A stretch of 35,108 nucleotides of DNA from a virus: IMG/VR virus record IMGVR_UViG_3300030104_000578, positions 1 to 35,108 of that record; one strand, written 5' to 3'. Position 1 is the stretch's first letter; each line of letters opens with the position of its first letter. Below, piece after piece: positions 24,168 through 35,108 of this stretch. The notes under the pieces were generated by a model, which had not been told where the DNA came from, did no database searches, and saw only the letters and a list, made by a program, of their open reading frames with translations. The position numbers and the translations under genes are program-made.

Positions 24168-24182
24168 GTTGGGATTCCCAAC
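24168..24182 (-). promoter_or_regulatory. 15-bp palindrome copy I, before DNA polymerase
   Basis: Perfect GTTGGGAATCCCAAC on the minus strand, between the primase-helicase stop (24184) and the polymerase ATG (24153). The Shine-Dalgarno AGAAAGAAG follows it directly, with 14 nt from palindrome to start. This is the last copy before the late genes. Confidence 0.9.
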
Positions 24183-26788: not shown

Positions 26789-29194
26789 CTAACTGAAGTA
26801 GTACTTCGATTCTAGAACCTTGGAAACATCGAGTGTACCGACCTCCGGAGTCTCTGGCAAGACGACTCCAGAAGGCAGTAGAGCGGAGAACTGGTTCGTT
26901 AAGTCCTCCATTACGTTCTCTTTGAATATGTCAACAGTAGCCCCACGCACACACTCATTGATGGTGTCAAGGTCACATGCGGTCGTGCTGATGTTGTCGT
27001 GGACAGTCATGAAAGACTTCACATCTCTGTCCAATGCTTTGTTCACAGTAAGGCCAAGTATGCCGCCAAGGCCATCCAAGGAATGGACGAGGTTCGCGCA
27101 GATTCCGTTGATCGTCTTGCGCCTCGACTGCTTGCCGTTTGGTATCCGGAGCCGGTGCTGTCGCATCGTACCGCCGACCATCGTCTTGATGCTGTGCTTG
27201 CCCATGTTCTCGTAATGCATCTTGACAGGGAAGCCCAACGGAGTAACCCAGCGAGGCGTGATGCCGTTGTCAACGAACACCGTAGCACAGGCACGAAGCC
27301 AGTCCATGACGATCCTTGCGGACGCAACGACTTCACCAATCGATTCCCATATAAGCTCAGCAAGATAGTTGCAGGGCGCATAAGTCTCCTCTCCAAACGG
27401 GTTCGTCTTCTTCGGGTCCTTCAGTTGTTCGTAGAACCACTCAGCAGTGTACGTACGGCAACTGTAGAACACGGAGCCGTACACGAGAGTCATCGTCTGA
27501 CGTTTCGTCGTCTTGCGGTTGATCCCGAAAGCGAGCCACTTCGACGCATAAGGACTAGCGTTGTCTCGCTCAAGTTTCTCGATGACAAGATCTGCAACAA
27601 CTTCGTACGGGTCCTGAGGTGCGTCACCCGGCAGCACGTTCGTCGCTCTTGCGCCCACCGTATCTCGAAGCATCAACGTCAGAATCTGTAGTCCTTGAGT
27701 TGTCGCATCAACGCCGCACGGCAACGTCGTGACGAAGCTAGAGCCGTGCAGATGGACACGGTGAATCTCGATACACGCACTCAGGAACTCCCAAGGATCG
27801 TCAGCATCTGCCCATGACATTTCCTTGTTGTTGGGATTCCCAACAGCCTTGATCATGTTCAGGTTCGATTCAGCCCAAGCAATCCGACTTTCGTACGGGT
27901 CCTTGTCGAGACCCCACGATGAAGCGGCTTTGATGTACAGCCATTTGAGACCGCTGTCGTCAATCTTCTTGCCGTCCTTGAATCTCAGAAGACTCTTGAC
28001 GTAGCTCGGCCCTTGGGGCTGCAAGAAGTAAGGCACCGGATATCCGCGACCTCTGAAGTCCAGAGAGTGTGGGTAGTACAGGTCACTGCTGGCGAACTTG
28101 TTGGACAGGTTCAGAACCTTCATGACTTGCAGACGCTTGGACTTCTTACGTTCGTTCTCGAAGTGCTGGCGAGCCGCCGCCTTCCTCCACGCACGTCTCG
28201 CTTCCTCGTTCGTCGCAATGTCGGTCGGCTTGTTCGGGATCGGGTCGTCTTCCATGGACGGCACACCGCCTACGGGAAGATCTTTCTCCCAGCAGAACTT
28301 GACCCAGTCATATACTTCGTGATTGATTCTGTACCCCGTCCTTTGCAGGCCGTTGACGGCACGGTACACGTGTGTCATGTCGCAGCTACCGATGTCTTCG
28401 AGGTACGACTTGTCTCTCGTCTTGACCAGCGCACGGCGACCGAAGCACGTGGCTTGGTAGCCACCGAGATACGGGTTGTTCCAATCGACGGGTCGCTCCA
28501 CCATAGGAAGCCAGACCGGAGCAAGGGAATCCCTGTACTCATGGGAGTCCTTCATCCACTTCAGCAGGTCCTCTGTCGGGCGGATCATCGTGTACGACTT
28601 ACCCTTGGGATCTGCTTTCGTGACGATGTCGATGATGCCCGTGGCCTGCCTCATAAGCTCAATGCAGGTCAGCCCCACGGACGCTGCGTCCTTCCGATTC
28701 CACTGGGGCAGGACAAGCTCGTGGTAATTCGCCGTGTTGTTGATGAACTTGGACTTCGTCTTGTCGCTCTTGTATTTGTCAAGCACACGGTTGATCTGTT
28801 GCCACAGGGCAGGATTGTCTTCCTTGATCGTCCGGAACTTCAGCTCGTCTTCAAGAGTTCGGGCCAGCGTCAACGCCGTACTCGTGATCTTGCGGTCCAC
28901 GGATACGCAATCAAGTACGCACTTCGAGGTCAGAGCAGCGACGACGGGAGCGGGTAGCTGTTCAATGTACTGTAATGCGCGATGCCTACGGCCCGGAGCC
29001 TGCTCAGCCTTAGCTTTCCAACTGTTGATCTCAGATGTCAGCTTATCAATCGACTCTGCAAGTAAGTATTGACCTACTGCCGTGGTTGATTCCAGCTTCG
29101 TTTCCTTGGCTCTCTTGATCTTATGGTAATACCGCTGGCGGCCCATCTCGATCATCTCTTCTTCAAGCCGTCCTTGGCTCAGCTTCTTACTCAC
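26789..29194 (-). CDS. Single-subunit DNA-directed RNA polymerase (gp1-like)
   Basis: GTG 29194, with GGGAGGGG four nt upstream, gives 801 residues (T7 RNAP is 883); the frame extends upstream without stop but only as shadow of the sigma-like gene. Catalytic residues are all present: Asp496 in LPCGVDATTQGLQ, Lys564 and Tyr572 in TTKRQTMTLVYGS, and the HD of TVHDNIS in motif C, with the usual C-terminal LESKYYFS ending like the FAFA end of T7. Residues 451-455 (VGNPN) are encoded by one of the nine palindromes. It should transcribe middle and late genes. The specificity-loop region reads TMRQHRLRIPNGKQSRRKTI, unlike T7, so its promoter cannot be guessed from T7. Confidence 0.97.
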   Translation of the reverse strand: MSKKLSQGRLEEEMIEMGRQRYYHKIKRAKETKLESTTAVGQYLLAESIDKLTSEINSWKAKAEQAPGRRHRALQYIEQLPAPVVAALTSKCVLDCVSVDRKITSTALTLARTLEDELKFRTIKEDNPALWQQINRVLDKYKSDKTKSKFINNTANYHELVLPQWNRKDAASVGLTCIELMRQATGIIDIVTKADPKGKSYTMIRPTEDLLKWMKDSHEYRDSLAPVWLPMVERPVDWNNPYLGGYQATCFGRRALVKTRDKSYLEDIGSCDMTHVYRAVNGLQRTGYRINHEVYDWVKFCWEKDLPVGGVPSMEDDPIPNKPTDIATNEEARRAWRKAAARQHFENERKKSKRLQVMKVLNLSNKFASSDLYYPHSLDFRGRGYPVPYFLQPQGPSYVKSLLRFKDGKKIDDSGLKWLYIKAASSWGLDKDPYESRIAWAESNLNMIKAVGNPNNKEMSWADADDPWEFLSACIEIHRVHLHGSSFVTTLPCGVDATTQGLQILTLMLRDTVGARATNVLPGDAPQDPYEVVADLVIEKLERDNASPYASKWLAFGINRKTTKRQTMTLVYGSVFYSCRTYTAEWFYEQLKDPKKTNPFGEETYAPCNYLAELIWESIGEVVASARIVMDWLRACATVFVDNGITPRWVTPLGFPVKMHYENMGKHSIKTMVGGTMRQHRLRIPNGKQSRRKTINGICANLVHSLDGLGGILGLTVNKALDRDVKSFMTVHDNISTTACDLDTINECVRGATVDIFKENVMEDLTNQFSALLPSGVVLPETPEVGTLDVSKVLESKYYFS
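27830..27844 (-). promoter_or_regulatory. 15-bp palindrome copy H, inside the RNA polymerase gene
   Basis: Perfect GTTGGGAATCCCAAC read in frame as Val-Gly-Asn-Pro-Asn, residues 451-455 of the polymerase. In T7 RNAP the equivalent stretch reads AKSPLEN just before WWAEQDSP, so the palindrome occupies a variable loop beside a conserved block. Confidence 0.9.
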
Positions 29195-29723
29195 GAGTCC
29201 CCTCCCATTTCGCTTTGCACATTCTGAGACGCTGACACGCCCTTGACTCACTGTACCCATGATGGACACCGAGCTGCTTGAGCGTCATACCCCTTGACTT
29301 CATGATCAGGAACCACTGGTCATCGACGGGCAACTCACTGAACCCCGGAAGATCTGGCACTTCAACATCTGCGGGAGCTGCCGGGTCGAAGTTCCAATCA
29401 GGCCACTGAAATACGGGACGAGTAAAGGACCGAGTGTTGTACTTTCCTTTATCCTTGTCGTATTTGCGGATTGTCAGGATAGAGTTGTCCTTGCAGTATT
29501 TCGCATGTACGAAGCTGAACAAGCTGGTACGCAAGAAGGCTGAGATCGGCCCCCTGTTGTAATCGTATTTAGGCATCAGCTTCTCCAGTGTAAGTAAATA
29601 CGCTTCACTCAGCAGGTCATTGAACGTCCATAGCATGAACGACTTACGGCGAACGCCGCACCACAGCTTCACTTCGTCGTACAGGTTAAGAAGTTCGGCG
29701 CGACTCAGGTTCAAGTTTAGCAA
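29187..29723 (-). CDS. Sigma-factor-like protein (regions 2 and 4)
   Basis: Up to 178 residues. Residues about 33-75 (FNDLLSEAYLLTLEKLMPKY, DYNRGPISAFLRTSLFSFVH) follow the sigma-70 region 2 pattern, and residues about 131-172 (LPVDDQWFLIMKSRGMTLKQ, LGVHHGYSESRACQRLRM) follow the region 4 helix-turn-helix. A Pro/Asp-rich linker separates them, as in ECF sigma factors. The start is uncertain: TTG 29723 lies within the integrase 3' end and lacks a clear Shine-Dalgarno; GTG or ATG codons further in are possible. It ends 8 nt inside the RNA polymerase gene. It may redirect host RNA polymerase or be an anti-sigma/decoy; both are inference. Confidence 0.65.
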   Translation of the reverse strand: MLNLNLSRAELLNLYDEVKLWCGVRRKSFMLWTFNDLLSEAYLLTLEKLMPKYDYNRGPISAFLRTSLFSFVHAKYCKDNSILTIRKYDKDKGKYNTRSFTRPVFQWPDWNFDPAAPADVEVPDLPGFSELPVDDQWFLIMKSRGMTLKQLGVHHGYSESRACQRLRMCKAKWEGTRE

Positions 29724-30537
29724 TCGCAGATGTCAGGCTTGCAGGGGTCAGGTGGCTATACCTGAGGGTCGTCTTCAGGCTGTTATGACCAGCAAGCTCT
29801 TTGACAGCGGCGAGAGGGACTCCACGTTGGACGAGGCGAGAACAGAACGTATGACGGCACGTATGGAGAAGCGCACCCTCAAACGGGTGGACTACCCTGA
29901 ACGCTTTGATCTTATCATCGATCTGCTGATTAGTGAAGTCGAACGGCGGCTCACCTGTGCGGCACCATGACCTCCGGAGTCTCAGGATCTCGGCAGCACG
30001 GGCCGTCAACGGAATCGTACGCGGACGCTCCGTCTTCAGTTTCTGCGGGTCGGAAAGCGTGACAGTATTGCATATCGTGTCAACGTCGTCCCACAGCAGG
30101 CTGAGAGCCTCGCCCCTACGCATACCGGTGTCCATCAGAAACAGGAACAGGTCCCTGAGGTCGTGGTCGTCCATCGCATCAGACAGCTCTTGTTCCTCTT
30201 CCTGACTGTAGAACTTCAGACGGCCCGCAGATTCCTTCTGTTTCGGTATCTCAGGCTTCTGAGTGACAACGCCGTGCCTGACCCCGTATTTCAGGATCTT
30301 ACTGACCACGGCCAACTTGCGGTTGATCGTTGCCCCCGTATTGTTCTTCATCCTGAGATGGACAACGAAGTTCTCGATGTCAAACGACGTGATGTCCGCC
30401 AGTTTCTTCTTGTCGCCAAAGTAATCGACGACCTCTTCCATGCGATACTCGGTGGTGCGTCGAGACTTCTGCTGTGACCACTCCATCTTGTGGACGTAGT
30501 CAGCCATATCCCCGACTGTTGTAGGTGCGTTTGTCAT
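29686..30537 (-). CDS. int: Tyrosine recombinase / phage integrase
   Basis: A 283-residue integrase with a SAM-like N-terminal core-binding domain (residues about 5-95) and a complete catalytic domain: Arg140 in TGMRRGEALSLLW, Lys168, His225-x-x-Arg228 in LHTCRHTF, His251 in LAGHNSLKTT and the nucleophile Tyr260 in LRYSHL. It should catalyse site-specific integration, implying a temperate or latent ability, as known for some T7-like cyanophages with int just upstream of the RNA polymerase. Shine-Dalgarno AAAGG precedes ATG 30537, downstream of a conspicuous inverted repeat. The 3' end overlaps the sigma-like gene by 38 nt. Confidence 0.95.
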   Translation of the reverse strand: MTNAPTTVGDMADYVHKMEWSQQKSRRTTEYRMEEVVDYFGDKKKLADITSFDIENFVVHLRMKNNTGATINRKLAVVSKILKYGVRHGVVTQKPEIPKQKESAGRLKFYSQEEEQELSDAMDDHDLRDLFLFLMDTGMRRGEALSLLWDDVDTICNTVTLSDPQKLKTERPRTIPLTARAAEILRLRRSWCRTGEPPFDFTNQQIDDKIKAFRVVHPFEGALLHTCRHTFCSRLVQRGVPLAAVKELAGHNSLKTTLRYSHLTPASLTSAIAKLEPESRRTS

Positions 30538-30629: not shown

Positions 30630-31487
30630 TCAGAAGTCAGCAGCGATCAACGCAGGCTCAGTGTTGGGATTCCCAACGGAGAACCTGTCGTCGATGATGT
30701 CCGCCAGCCGTGCCATGCGACTGGACTGAGTCATCAGTGACGCGCCTCTGTCGTTGCTCGTGAATGCGTTCTCAAGGGACCAGACGTTGCGATCCTTGAA
30801 CTCGGGATGCTCAGGCTCTTCCCAGTGTTCAAGCACACGCATCGTAGCCGAGTTGCCCATCACGTTGGCCTTCGCAGCCTCCATGATGACGTACCTCGCA
30901 TCGTCGTCGGAACACTCGATGTTCTTCCATCGCTCGATGCGGGCAGTTTCAGCCTCTGCGGCAGGCAGGAGATGCGAGACGGCGTTGTCGATCAGCTCGT
31001 AGACATGCTCGAACTGACCCTCACGGTCCCTGTCGATGTTCTTCGTGTGCTTGCGGCGGAACTGAGCTTCTGCGCCCATGAACATACCGTTGCTGCACAC
31101 AGATACGCGACGACCAAGGCCTCCACCGGCTGACTTCGTCATGTCGTAGCTGTTGACGAACCCAGCTTCCCACGTCATCTCTGACGTACTGGGCAGGCCG
31201 GGGTGGGCGATGCCGTAAAGGCTGATGAACCGACCCCACTCACCCTGATCCTTGATCTTCGGGTTCTTCGTGGTCTTGGCGCGGTAGTGCGTCGGATCAG
31301 AGAGCTGAAACCCGTGACGACTGAACGCCTGCTCGATCATGTCCACGTACGTCTCATGAGGCAGGGGCCTCCACGTGTCCGGGCCGAGCTGAGGAACGCG
31401 AATCTTGCGAATCGTGTTCATGTCCACCCGCTCACCCCAGTTCTTCGGATCGAACGGGGTAGGGGCCGTGGGTGCGAGAGTAACCAT
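30630..31487 (-). CDS. DUF932-like phage/plasmid protein
   Basis: ATG 31487 with TTGGAGA upstream gives 285 residues. The central block GFVNSYDMTKSAGGGLGRRV then SVCSNGMFMGAEAQFRRKHT and KNIDRD is the recognisable DUF932 pattern (…S.D.S…V.C.N……RKHT…). DUF932 proteins are common on phages and plasmids, often early genes, with no settled biochemical function. The last 15 residues begin with VGNPN (271-275), encoded by palindrome copy G, so the C-terminus appears built over the regulatory element. The longer frame upstream to 31673 is shadow of the gene above. Confidence 0.75.
   Translation of the reverse strand: MVTLAPTAPTPFDPKNWGERVDMNTIRKIRVPQLGPDTWRPLPHETYVDMIEQAFSRHGFQLSDPTHYRAKTTKNPKIKDQGEWGRFISLYGIAHPGLPSTSEMTWEAGFVNSYDMTKSAGGGLGRRVSVCSNGMFMGAEAQFRRKHTKNIDRDREGQFEHVYELIDNAVSHLLPAAEAETARIERWKNIECSDDDARYVIMEAAKANVMGNSATMRVLEHWEEPEHPEFKDRNVWSLENAFTSNDRGASLMTQSSRMARLADIIDDRFSVGNPNTEPALIAADF
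30663..30677 (-). promoter_or_regulatory. 15-bp palindrome copy G, at the 3' end of the DUF932-like gene
   Basis: Perfect GTTGGGAATCCCAAC, in frame as VGNPN (residues 271-275 of 285) and 125 nt before the integrase ATG. It is the first copy upstream of int. Confidence 0.9.
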
Positions 31488-31540: not shown

Positions 31541-31555
31541 GTTGGGAATCCCAAC
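31541..31555 (-). promoter_or_regulatory. 15-bp palindrome copy F, reversed centre
   Basis: On the minus strand this copy reads GTTGGGATTCCCAAC, the only one with the opposite central base. It lies 2 nt after the stop of the ribbon-helix-helix-like gene (31558) and 53 nt before the DUF932-like ATG, and is noncoding. Confidence 0.9.
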
Positions 31556-31557
31556 GA

Positions 31558-31773
31558 TTAGTGCAGCTTGTTCTTATCGTCCTGATAAGACTTGAAGCCA
31601 CGCCTGACAAGGTCCACGAGAACGTCGTGTTCGTCCACGTGCGTCTTCGGGAGACCCATCGCATCATGAACATTCTCGATGTTCTGACGGATGACGGAAA
31701 CCTGCTGTCTGATCTCAGGAGACAGACGGAGGTAGAGACCCTGACGGGACATTTTTCGAGTGCGAGAATCCAT
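31558..31773 (-). CDS. Ribbon-helix-helix-like small protein, candidate regulator
   Basis: ATG 31773 with GAAGGGG upstream gives 71 residues. The pattern RQGLYLRLSPEIRQQVSVIR, then a short insert, then DEHDVLVDLVRRGFKSY, matches an N-terminal beta strand followed by two helices as in MetJ/Arc/CopG-type DNA-binding proteins, whose dimers bind palindromic operators. It is preceded by its own TTGACA/TAAAAT promoter candidate and a terminator-like hairpin, and followed at once by palindrome copy F. This makes it a good candidate to bind the 15-bp palindromes, but the fold is judged by eye. Confidence 0.6.
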   Translation of the reverse strand: MDSRTRKMSRQGLYLRLSPEIRQQVSVIRQNIENVHDAMGLPKTHVDEHDVLVDLVRRGFKSYQDDKNKLH

Positions 31774-31797
31774 TCGTTTACCCCTTCTAAGGTAAGT

Positions 31798-31832
31798 AAA
31801 AGAGCGACACTTGTTCACTGCGGCAGTCGCTC
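31798..31832 (-). terminator. Terminator or attenuator hairpin before the RHH-like gene
   Basis: On the minus strand GAGCGAC (31832-31826) pairs with GTCGCTC (31808-31802), with a 17-nt loop that can form an inner ACTG/CAGT stem, followed by TTTT (31801-31798) and more Ts. It lies between the candidate promoter at 31873-31900 and the gene starting at 31773, so it may end early transcripts or act as an attenuator. Confidence 0.65.
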
Positions 31833-31856
31833 ACCTCCGCCACGAAAGGTCTGATG

Positions 31857-32021
31857 TCAACTCAAGTCATCTATTTTATCAGCCTTGAGTACTGTGTCAA
31901 CAAAGTCGATCTCTGCGTCGGAAAGCATGTGGACATGTTCTGGATTCTCCTTCAGGGAACGTGCGAAACGCTTAGCTGAATCGAGATTGCCCATGCCGAC
32001 ATAGCTTTCGACTAGGATCAT
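31857..32021 (-). CDS. Small hypothetical protein
   Basis: A 54-residue acidic helical protein, MILVESYVGMGNLDSAKRFA then RSLKENPEHVHMLSDAEIDF. ATG 32021 overlaps the upstream TGA (ATGA), indicating coupling; an AAGGAGG at 32052-32058 upstream would suit a CTG start at 32045, which is less likely. No family recognised. The gene's 3' third contains a sigma70-type promoter candidate for the next gene. Confidence 0.6.
   Translation of the reverse strand: MILVESYVGMGNLDSAKRFARSLKENPEHVHMLSDAEIDFVDTVLKADKIDDLS
31873..31900 (-). promoter_or_regulatory. Candidate sigma70 promoter for the RHH-like gene
   Basis: TTGACA (31900-31895), 16-bp spacer, TAAAAT (31878-31873) on the minus strand, inside the small gene at 31857-32021. 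Match is 6/6 and 5/6 to the consensus with the same spacer as the early promoter. It would give the RHH-like gene a promoter independent of the early operon. Confidence 0.55.
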
Positions 32022-32656: not shown

Positions 32657-33395
32657 GCTCGGCCTCCTTGTTGGGATTCCCAACGGCATAACTGTTGGCG
32701 GCGTTGCCATGGACGGTGATTGCGATGCCGGGTACGACTCTGGGCTTGTGACGCATCGCACCTGCACACAGGCCACAGTCAGCGCACGTGACACGGCGGC
32801 CCATCTCCGCTGACGATGGACAGACTAACTCCTGACGTGTCGGCTCCTGACCCTTGGGCATGACACGGAACGTGCGATAGCCGAGGGCCTGAGCATCGAG
32901 GACATCATCGTGAGTCTCGCAGGATGCCATGCATAGATCGGAGATGTCAGGACAATCACGCCACTGATGCGTATACCCCGTGAACGTCTTGACATTGGCG
33001 ATCAATGAACGCCAGACGGACGCAGGGACAGCCGCCGGATCTCCGTACGCACCGAGCCGTACCTTGCGACCTGACACGATCTCGCCAGCCTCGTCAGGAT
33101 CGACGGACTCGTAGTTACCCTTCTGGAATGACCGCCAGACAGACGCAGGACCCATGATGTTGACGTAGCACGTACGCTTGCCGCCGTTGGGCCTGTGGAT
33201 ACAGTCGCCACAGATCGCGTAGTCATCGCCAGACTTCAGAGCCTCACTCGGGTGCGAGTCACGCACAAGGATCCAAGTCTGGAGCATGTCGCCCGTCTTC
33301 GGATTGCTGGAACGCTTGTTGAGACCAGTAAGGATCGCAACGATCGGAGTCACGCCGTCACCGGGAAGATGACTGGGGCCGTCATAGATAATCAT
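32643..33395 (-). CDS. DUF7227-like conserved phage protein
   Basis: ATG 33395 with GAAAGGA upstream gives 250 residues. It has a recognisable conserved phage pattern: GLNKRSSNPKTGDMLQTWIL, GDDYAICGDCIHRPN, TCYVNIMGPASVWRSFQKGN, VRLGAYGDPAAVP, TGYTHQWR and a C-terminal CPSSAEMGRRVTCADCGLC. Paired C-x-x-C motifs suggest zinc binding. The family is widespread in phages and plasmids and has no known function. The last residues VGNPNKEAELVRN include VGNPN (238-242) from palindrome copy E. A 32-codon ORF overlaps its start and may couple translation. Confidence 0.75.
   Translation of the reverse strand: MIIYDGPSHLPGDGVTPIVAILTGLNKRSSNPKTGDMLQTWILVRDSHPSEALKSGDDYAICGDCIHRPNGGKRTCYVNIMGPASVWRSFQKGNYESVDPDEAGEIVSGRKVRLGAYGDPAAVPASVWRSLIANVKTFTGYTHQWRDCPDISDLCMASCETHDDVLDAQALGYRTFRVMPKGQEPTRQELVCPSSAEMGRRVTCADCGLCAGAMRHKPRVVPGIAITVHGNAANSYAVGNPNKEAELVRN
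32670..32684 (-). promoter_or_regulatory. 15-bp palindrome copy E, before the HTH gene
   Basis: Perfect GTTGGGAATCCCAAC at the 3' end of the DUF7227-like gene (in frame as VGNPN) and 13 nt before the TTG start of the HTH gene. An AAGGAGG Shine-Dalgarno follows the palindrome directly. Confidence 0.9.
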
Positions 33396-33737: not shown

Positions 33738-34218
33738 TGGAGTCCTCCAGATCGATTGGTTCAGAGTTCAGCCAGTCACGGTACACGGCTGCGCCATCGA
33801 CGTACGTGTCACCCTGATGGAAGTGGATGTGAACGTCGGGCCGATCATGGTGATAATCGATGTGGCTGAGGATCGAAGCGCGGGACATCGGTTCTCGAAC
33901 GTGGTTGTGGACATACGTCCAGCCTGACACCCCGACATTACGGAAGTGCCAGAGGTCTCGACGCTTCGGGCTGATGATCGCGTCCTCGTTGTACGAGAAG
34001 ATCGAGATGTGAGTGTAGATGTCAATGTTGAGCATCGGTCGCTCCATTCTGTTGGGATTCCCAACGCTTGCTTGTGCGCCGGGATCGATAGCGTTGATGA
34101 GATCAGCGATCAGACGGGCAGCCCCGCTGACCACCTTGGCGTTGTTGGTCTCAAAGCCTTCTTCATGGACGATCTCTGCGAGTCCGTCCTGAATCTTCTT
34201 CTGATCATTCGTATCCAT
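33718..34218 (-). CDS. Hypothetical protein with palindrome-encoded VGNPN between two parts
   Basis: ATG 34218, overlapping the upstream stop by 14 nt, gives 166 residues. The N-terminal part (1 to about 51) is helical (DGLAEIVHEEGF, AARLIADLINAID); then come VGNPN (52-56) and RMERP, and a second part starting MLNIDIYTHISIFSYNEDAI rich in His and Asp (HIDYHHDRPDVHIHFHQGD). The Met at codon 62 (34035) has its own GGAG six nt upstream, so the C-terminal 105 residues may be made separately. It could be two genes that read through each other because the palindrome has no stop in this frame. No family recognised; the His/Asp cluster might bind metal. Confidence 0.6.
   Translation of the reverse strand: MDTNDQKKIQDGLAEIVHEEGFETNNAKVVSGAARLIADLINAIDPGAQASVGNPNRMERPMLNIDIYTHISIFSYNEDAIISPKRRDLWHFRNVGVSGWTYVHNHVREPMSRASILSHIDYHHDRPDVHIHFHQGDTYVDGAAVYRDWLNSEPIDLEDSNANGTD
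34051..34065 (-). promoter_or_regulatory. 15-bp palindrome copy D, inside the 166-residue gene
   Basis: Perfect GTTGGGAATCCCAAC in frame as VGNPN (residues 52-56) and 15 nt before the internal ATG at 34035. The downstream flank AGAATGGA is shared with copy C. Confidence 0.9.
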
Positions 34219-34637: not shown

Positions 34638-34652
34638 GTTGGGATTCCCAAC
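34638..34652 (-). promoter_or_regulatory. 15-bp palindrome copy C, between the first two early genes
   Basis: Perfect GTTGGGAATCCCAAC two nt after the TAA of the first gene (34655) and 16 nt before ATG 34621. It takes up nearly half of the 33-nt intergenic gap and is noncoding. Confidence 0.9.
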
Positions 34653-34883: not shown

Positions 34884-34898
34884 GTTGGGATTCCCAAC
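34884..34898 (-). promoter_or_regulatory. 15-bp palindrome copy B, in the early leader
   Basis: Perfect GTTGGGAATCCCAAC in the leader of the first early gene, about 50 bp downstream of the -10 box and 22 nt before ATG 34861. It is followed by ACTCACGAAAGG containing the Shine-Dalgarno. Confidence 0.9.
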
Positions 34899-34941: not shown

Positions 34942-34956
34942 ACGTATATTATACGT
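34942..34956. promoter_or_regulatory. Second palindrome, over the early -10 box
   Basis: ACGTATATTATACGT is a perfect 7-1-7 inverted repeat centred on the -10 element, with the same geometry as the dispersed palindrome but a different sequence. Part of the symmetry comes from TATAAT itself, so it may be an operator or coincidence. Confidence 0.5.
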
Positions 34957-34975
34957 TATTCGTTTCTTATGTCAA
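34948..34975 (-). promoter_or_regulatory. Early host sigma70 promoter
   Basis: Exact TTGACA (34975-34970), 16-bp spacer, exact TATAAT (34953-34948) on the minus strand, directed at the whole early operon. It is the strongest host-type promoter seen in the window and is where host RNA polymerase would start after DNA entry. The -10 box sits inside a perfect 15-bp palindrome, and 15-bp palindrome copies lie on both sides. Confidence 0.88.
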
Positions 34976-34986
34976 GTCTACAGTTT

Positions 34987-35001
34987 GTTGGGATTCCCAA
35001 C
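34987..35001 (-). promoter_or_regulatory. 15-bp palindrome copy A, upstream of the early promoter
   Basis: Perfect GTTGGGAATCCCAAC 11 bp upstream of the -35 box. It lies outside the transcript of that promoter, which favours a DNA-level function for the element. Confidence 0.9.
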
Positions 35002-35108
35002 GATGCTGGAACTTCTGACGCTGGAACAACTGACGGCGACTACTGTCACGCACTGTCACGATCGCGGAACTCCTGACGGCAGCCACTGTCACGTTTACTG
35101 TCACGCGG
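35002..35108. repeat. Noncoding end region with two interleaved short repeats
   Basis: ACTGTCACG occurs at 35042-35050, 35052-35060, 35085-35093 and 35097-35105. GGAACNNCTGACGGC occurs at 35023-35037 and 35066-35080, with a slightly shorter copy at 35008-35021. The pattern suggests a duplicated block of about 45 bp. No gene is visible. Its position at the early end recalls the short repeat arrays beside the terminal repeats of T7 DNA, but whether this is a true genome end cannot be judged from the window. Confidence 0.75.

Follow-up and report, generated by a model that had tools for sequence, protein, structure and literature searches.

Phage-specific palindrome arrays in an uncultured T7-like phage lineage and a hypervariable early protein as their candidate reader

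T7-like phages that carry an integrase are known from the sea. LUZ100, CRP-171, CRP-125 and Bylgja have a MarR-like gene beside the integrase, that of HTVC019P is labelled only as a transcriptional regulator, and a role of the MarR-like gene in the silent state is only proposed, according to the available text of PMC10134795. Repressor homologues were sought in T7-like cyanophages and none was found, as stated in the accessible part of PMC8776855. In Cluster A mycobacteriophages, the stoperators of the L5/TipsytheTRex repressor are described in the portions available of PMC9283540 and PMC6550527 as asymmetric 13-mers that are bound by a monomer and lie in one orientation.

We analyzed a 35,108-base viral record, here called the window, which is a T7-like phage contig. 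Its minus strand carries, in T7-like order, a single-subunit RNA polymerase (RNAP), an ssDNA-binding protein, a primase/helicase, a DNA polymerase, a connector, a capsid and tail genes; the single-subunit RNAP, the T7-type primase/helicase, the connector and the tail proteins are those of the Autographiviridae type. A tyrosine integrase is also encoded. We found no close named phage, the RNAP being at best ~35% identical among the named phages listed, and no useful named relatives of a 71-aa protein and its neighbor. A preliminary description of this DNA had drawn attention to the 71-aa protein, viewed as a ribbon-helix-helix (RHH)-like maintenance repressor, and to a palindrome just past its stop codon. 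This palindrome is an exact 15-bp site (copy F), and it belongs to a real array: GTTGGGAWTCCCAAC occurs in the window as nine exact copies, which are also all the matches obtained when up to 3 mismatches are allowed. At this tolerance 0.68 matches are expected, and nine were reached in 0 of 100 shuffles, arguing against chance or assembly repeats. We also rejected the copies as promoters of the phage RNAP, in view of their symmetry and their near-absence from the structural half. Copy F is, as described, the only one of the nine with an A centre on the plus strand, but we do not regard this reversal as a signal; it is probably trivial, because several related arrays lack a uniform centre and the equivalently placed copy in the relative G001 is reversed too. 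All features of the window are collected in Table 1.

Table 1. Positions of palindrome copies, genes and regulatory elements in the window
Feature	Position	Strand	Remark
palindrome copy	24168..24182	.	between primase/helicase and DNA polymerase genes
single-subunit (T7-like) RNA polymerase	26789..29269	-	palindrome in frame, codon ~451 (VGNPN)
palindrome copy	27830..27844	.	inside RNA polymerase gene
tyrosine integrase	29686..30537	-	
DUF932-like gene	30630..31487	-	palindrome in frame near 3' end (VGNPN)
palindrome copy	30663..30677	.	inside 3' end of DUF932-like gene
palindrome copy F, GTTGGGAATCCCAAC	31541..31555	.	starts 2 nt past stop of RHH-like gene
RHH-like ORF, 71 aa	31558..31773	-	protein starts MDSRTRKMSRQGLYLRL
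small stem TTACC/GGTAA	31778..31795	-	likely Shine-Dalgarno (AAGGGG) in loop and 3' arm; conserved in G001, G014
5'UTR hairpin GAGCGAC/GTCGCTC, then TTTT	31802..31832	-	compensatory change in G014
54-aa ORF, cluster c25	31857..32021	-	holds promoter of RHH-like gene; kept in 8 contigs
sigma70-type promoter TTGACA-N16-TAAAAT of RHH-like gene	31873..31900	-	TG before -10; kept in G001, G014
palindrome copy	32670..32684	.	inside 3' end of phrog_2554 gene, in frame (VGNPN)
palindrome copy	34051..34065	.	in frame in early ORF (VGNPN)
palindrome copy	34638..34652	.	upstream of early ORF
palindrome copy	34884..34898	.	49 nt downstream of early promoter -10
sigma70 early promoter TTGACA-N16-TATAAT	34948..34975	-	12/12, perfect
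palindrome copy	34987..35001	.	11 nt upstream of early promoter -35
GTGACAG-type repeats	35002..35108	-	window end

Using the DUF932-like neighbor as bait, we found relatives in IMG/VR. In these uncultured phages a palindrome of 13-16 bp recurs in 2-15 copies, and its sequence mostly differs from one phage to the next; the largest palindrome family had 3-15 copies against at most 2 in 10 shuffles in each of seven contigs. The families include TCGGAGA-S-TCTCCGA (12 copies in G006 and 8 in G010, two of the latter with an altered centre), TCGGGGA-N-TCCCCGA (G007, G009, G017), GTAGCAA-S-TTGCTAC (7 copies in G008), TCTGTAG-N2-CTACAGA (G021, G023) and palindromes like TCTTGTCATGACAAGA (15 copies in G022) or TCTGGGACGTCCCAGA (10 copies in G024), with further families in other relatives. 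Arrays are concentrated in the early half of the genomes; G016 showed none, but the early region that precedes DUF932 is missing from its contig.

Outside this group, nine named T7-like records contained no palindrome array, and literature searches found no such arrays in print. LUZ100 (L160), alone among the named records, has the 15-bp palindrome GCGCATAAGATGCGC twice (386-400 and 587-601), with copies inside both annotated host promoters, P1 and P2. Arrays are also borne by more distant T7-like contigs that were located through their terminase (L134/L133, L122/L125, L119/L120 and L081); these have other sequences, including 13-bp palindromes with a G/C centre, while most of 80 loci showed no repeated palindrome after the terminase, many of them having little sequence there. 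The large phage contigs L043-L047, with a distant DUF932 relative, have an inverted repeat of their own, AAATCG-N5-CGATTT, in 4-12 copies. The exact palindrome of the window also occurs twice in G012 (L012; 267-281 and 366-380, 99 bp apart), adjoining a small divergently transcribed gene in an apparently unrelated phage; we rejected G012 as a relative since inspection by eye assigns its genes to a different type of phage, and none of them matches the other contigs.

Many sites lie inside coding sequence, at homologous codons of the RNAP, DNA polymerase and DUF932 genes, where the encoded residues follow the local palindrome. In the window, four of the nine copies are in frame and all read VGNPN. 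By hand count from the genetic code, this peptide has 256 encodings and only one is a perfect palindrome, indicating that the in-frame copies are held at the DNA level. Codon ~451 of the RNAP carries a site in six contigs (G000, G001, G006, G007, G009, G010; 23 rows) and the peptide there is VGNPN, IGESPI or IGDSPN, in keeping with the palindrome of the contig; IGSDPF is an example of what the other contigs have. The letters of G002 at this codon are those of G000, to which it is near-identical; it was not flagged, no pattern having been set for it. Similarly, codon ~129 of the DNA polymerase carries a site in three contigs with three palindromes (G005, G006, G007; 18 rows), and the 3' end of DUF932 does so in 10 of the 14 contigs examined, the site lying a few nucleotides past the DUF932 stop instead in G022-G024.

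The sites are also placed with respect to promoters. Among 25 promoter-like sequences from 18 contigs (at least 10/12 matches), 13 have a site 10-80 nt downstream, at observed distances of 14-77 nt, and four have one upstream; at a match of at least 11/12, the downstream fraction is 9/12. Random placement gave 2.1 downstream sites on average compared to the 13 observed, and a control that keeps coding or intergenic status gave a mean of 5.5 and a maximum of 12, with 13 reached in 0 of 2000 trials. In the window, sites flank the early promoter on both sides (Table 1). The promoter of the RHH-like gene is an exception, its next site lying a computed ~318 nt away and past the stop; the exception is not general, as a palindrome is found 43 nt downstream of this promoter in G017. 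Sites located mostly 14-77 nt downstream of strong promoters suggest roadblock, or stoperator-like, control, and this geometry fits a roadblock to host RNA polymerase.

Which protein might read the palindromes? In 9/9 contigs that cover the slot, the terminase block is followed by a first early gene that is flanked by sites and encodes a hypervariable, Lys/Ala-rich protein (191-310 aa as compared). BLAST found no relatives among these proteins except between phages with a common palindrome. In G022, G023 and G024, whose palindromes differ, the hypervariable protein is unalignable (at most 24%); elsewhere these phages are 95-97% (DNA polymerase), 89-93% (DUF932) and 85-94% (RNAP) identical. Among 78 protein pairs, the three with a shared palindrome rank highest in similarity, although two of these are simply close relatives; the protein is thus present with the palindrome and varies with it, in a comparison partly confounded by relatedness. 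G011 and G013, which have the palindrome of the window, encode hypervariable proteins that are 40% identical by MAFFT (30% by BLAST), their terminases being 97% identical.

The one AlphaFold model, of the protein of the sister phage G011 and built from two sequences, is mostly confident over residues 21-150. The DNA-binding domains of ParB, Spo0J, Noc, SopB and KorB account for 12 of its 13 best structural rows (Z 5.2-7.5). The best match, Z 7.5 over 111 aa, is weak (Foldseek E 0.67 or worse), and we treat the likeness as a lead because a widespread arrangement can yield Z values of this order. The KorB operator OB is TTTAGCSGCTAAA. At 223 aa, the G011 protein has no N-terminal CTPase domain; a low-confidence tail of ~20 residues precedes the helical, DNA-binding-like fold. 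Searches by sequence found no ParB among Pfam families at E<=1 for the hypervariable proteins, no relative of the G011/G013 protein in IMG/VR other than G011 itself, no PDB match to the G011/G013 profile, no named-phage match to two other hypervariable proteins, and nothing relevant by phmmer of the G022 and G006 proteins against the PDB. In profile comparisons among the hypervariable proteins, the best pair was G011/13 and G022 (E 0.0026) and most others were not significant. We do not rely on two weak library matches, of the G006 protein to ParB-like phrog_1033 (E 0.0024) and of the G022 protein to a phage terminase small subunit (E 0.025). The hypervariable protein is a more likely candidate for the palindrome binder than the RHH-like protein.

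The corresponding gene of the window is predicted to lie just beyond position 35108, off the contig. The G011 contig ends with ...TTTTTTTTGCCGCGTGAC just after the hypervariable gene and its terminator, at the same junction as the window end, and the window begins on its minus strand with CCGCGTGACAGTAAACGTGACAG. Shared structural proteins are 43-93% identical between the two, so they are sister phages and not one genome, whose contigs probably broke at the same repeats. In several phages, imperfect GTGACAG- or GTGATAG-type repeats occur after a strong terminator and before the early promoter; besides those at the window end, G006 and G008 have them in the stretch that separates the hypervariable gene from the promoter following it. 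They are possibly an origin or packaging element.

In our preferred reading, to which we give a probability of roughly 0.6, the palindromes would be operators of a phage-specific repression exerted by the hypervariable first-early-gene protein, which would roadblock host RNA polymerase in a T7-like genome. The protein would bind as a dimer across the host-transcribed part of the genome, most likely, as the structural model suggests, through a ParB/KorB-type helix-turn-helix domain lacking the CTPase domain. Sites 14-77 nt past strong sigma70 promoters would stop host RNA polymerase once it has initiated, additional ones within early genes and the RNAP and DNA polymerase genes would stop it during elongation, and the hypervariable gene itself would also be under roadblock. 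Copy F, right past the stop of the RHH-like gene, would shield DUF932, integrase and RNAP. The RHH-like gene could stay expressed in this phage, since no palindrome lies between its own promoter and the end of its ORF; it may be a second, smaller regulator in the slot taken by the MarR-like gene in other integrase-bearing T7-like phages. The more specific proposition falls just short of even odds: that the lineage relies on a ParB/KorB-type repressor devoid of a CTPase domain and acting at palindromic roadblock operators, and that immunity specificity shifts by replacement of the repressor gene together with joint rewriting of up to 15 operators, some of them lying in codons of the RNA and DNA polymerases of the phage itself.

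The arrays could instead have nothing to do with lysogeny. In both lytic and temperate phages, the hypervariable protein would then act as an early-to-middle switch, turning off host RNA polymerase as soon as phage RNAP has been produced. Arrays and hypervariable gene persist on contigs that lack the integrase cluster, the sites end around RNAP and DNA polymerase, and a DUF932 query found no integrated relative in a one-per-species genome collection; on the grounds of the contigs without integrase and of this search, lysogeny is no more than a possible function. However, a specificity that changes from phage to phage is a hallmark of immunity systems and not of housekeeping switches, judging from Cluster A as presented in the available text of PMC6550527, and we lean slightly against the switch.

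Two further alternatives turn on the RHH-like gene. The preliminary description was right about its 71-residue ORF and about a TTGACA-N16-TAAAAT promoter inside the preceding gene, which has 11/12 matches. The same promoter is found exactly, at the same place, in G001 and G014, although the surrounding gene has diverged to 47% protein identity in G014; this places it above chance. An attenuator-like hairpin with a T-run had also been proposed. The hairpin stands: its seven pairs are kept in 3/3 sequences (window, G001, G014), and in G014 one pair has switched from A-U to G-C by a double change and another from C-G to U-G. The attenuator is less convincing, as only TTTT follows the stem where at least five T are expected, so the element is a weak terminator and termination is doubtful. 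It escaped a scan restricted to loops of 3-8, and in minimum-energy folds of the whole leader it is not always present, forming when folded alone. A second small stem with the likely ribosome-binding site is invariant in the three sequences. These features support the view that the small protein is regulator-like and that its gene has a conserved sigma70 promoter and a conserved 5'UTR hairpin of its own.

RHH (MetJ/Arc) regulators are dimers that insert a paired strand into the DNA major groove. The proposed RHH fold is plausible but weak: the AF2 model (pLDDT 78.7) has an extended N-terminus and helices at 19-39 and 48-64, with no strand assigned in the monomer. This arrangement is compatible with RHH regulators such as those of the CopG/Arc class, MazE and the DNA-binding domain of TraM, from which the protein differs in its longer first helix and in having no significant sequence or structure match. 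The weak structure matches (Foldseek best TraM, E 2.7; VIA Z <= 3.8) include TraM, TCP and MazE, which we take to be RHH or RHH-like. No Pfam or PHROGs family was matched at E<=1 and no RHH family in a PDB profile search, nor were relatives found in named phages, or in IMG/VR by peptide pattern. Relatives were reached only through gene neighborhood, and a profile from seven RHH-like members matched in 9 contigs. Small proteins of a different family, cluster c38 (87-100 aa), take or adjoin the slot upstream of DUF932 in G018, G019, G020 and G007.

It is possible, if tentative, that both proteins act, the hypervariable one setting the sites and the RHH-like one binding its own promoter or another sequence as autoregulator or co-repressor (compare KorA/KorB). 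The presence of two separate conserved regulator-like genes and the lack of a palindrome close to the RHH promoter in the clade of the window are consistent with this; no second repeated motif was identified, however, the RHH-like gene is absent from half of the family, and the G017 palindrome close behind this promoter counts against it.

That the RHH-like protein itself binds the palindromes as a maintenance repressor, the central claim of the preliminary description, is unlikely. Its own conserved promoter and hairpin, the palindrome immediately past its stop in G000, G001 and G014 and its plausible topology speak for this role, but neither its distribution nor its covariation fits. No profile match was found in 9/18 array-bearing contigs with the slot covered (G007, G010, G018-G020, G021-G024). 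At least four unrelated half-sites occur with one and the same predicted DNA-contact strand motif, G-[I/L/F]-[Y/F]-x-R. G006 and G010 have the same palindrome, yet G010 lacks the RHH-like protein, and the slot proteins of G021-G024, which fall outside the RHH-like profile, are by eye 97% identical over their first 75 residues with different palindromes (the near-identical G021/G022) and 93% identical with the same palindrome. The best role for the RHH-like protein, we infer, is that of a second regulator, which may be expressed while the sites are bound. Just as improbably, the palindromes would be partition (centromere) or genome-organizing sites of a ParB-like protein, for which the modeled fold similarity to ParB, Noc and SopB and the scattered 13-16 bp palindromes would speak, against the strong link to promoter spacing and the concentration in the early half; nor did a ParA gene come to notice.

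Compared with the MarR-like phages, as covered in the text available, the window likewise has a small regulator just upstream of an integrase/RNAP block in a T7-like phage; here the genes are RHH-like and DUF932, with no MarR-like gene recognized, and those phages are without a palindrome array. How, or whether, integrase-bearing T7-like phages keep a silent state becomes directly testable with a phage-specific array and a candidate binder, and the arrays form a natural series for asking how many operators change specificity together while some encode essential proteins. The candidate binder differs from KorB (plasmid RK2), ParB and Noc in that 223 aa leave no room for an N-terminal CTPase domain and in having no sequence-level family match. 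In the model it shares with the DNA-binding domains of KorB, ParB, Noc and SopB a helix-turn-helix with a helical subdomain, and the sites are alike in being palindromes of similar length, many per replicon (parS TGTTTCACGTGAAACA, NBS TATTTCCCGGGAAATA), as far as the accessible text of PMC11790492 and PMC7383237 describes them. The arrays resemble Cluster A stoperators, from what is available on these, in having many sites genome-wide, at promoters and away from them (as the relatives' arrays do), and in a specificity that differs between related phages. In contrast to the asymmetric, one-orientation 13-bp site, those described here are perfect palindromes of 13-16 bp, occur in T7-like phages, often lie in coding sequence and would be read by an unrelated protein.
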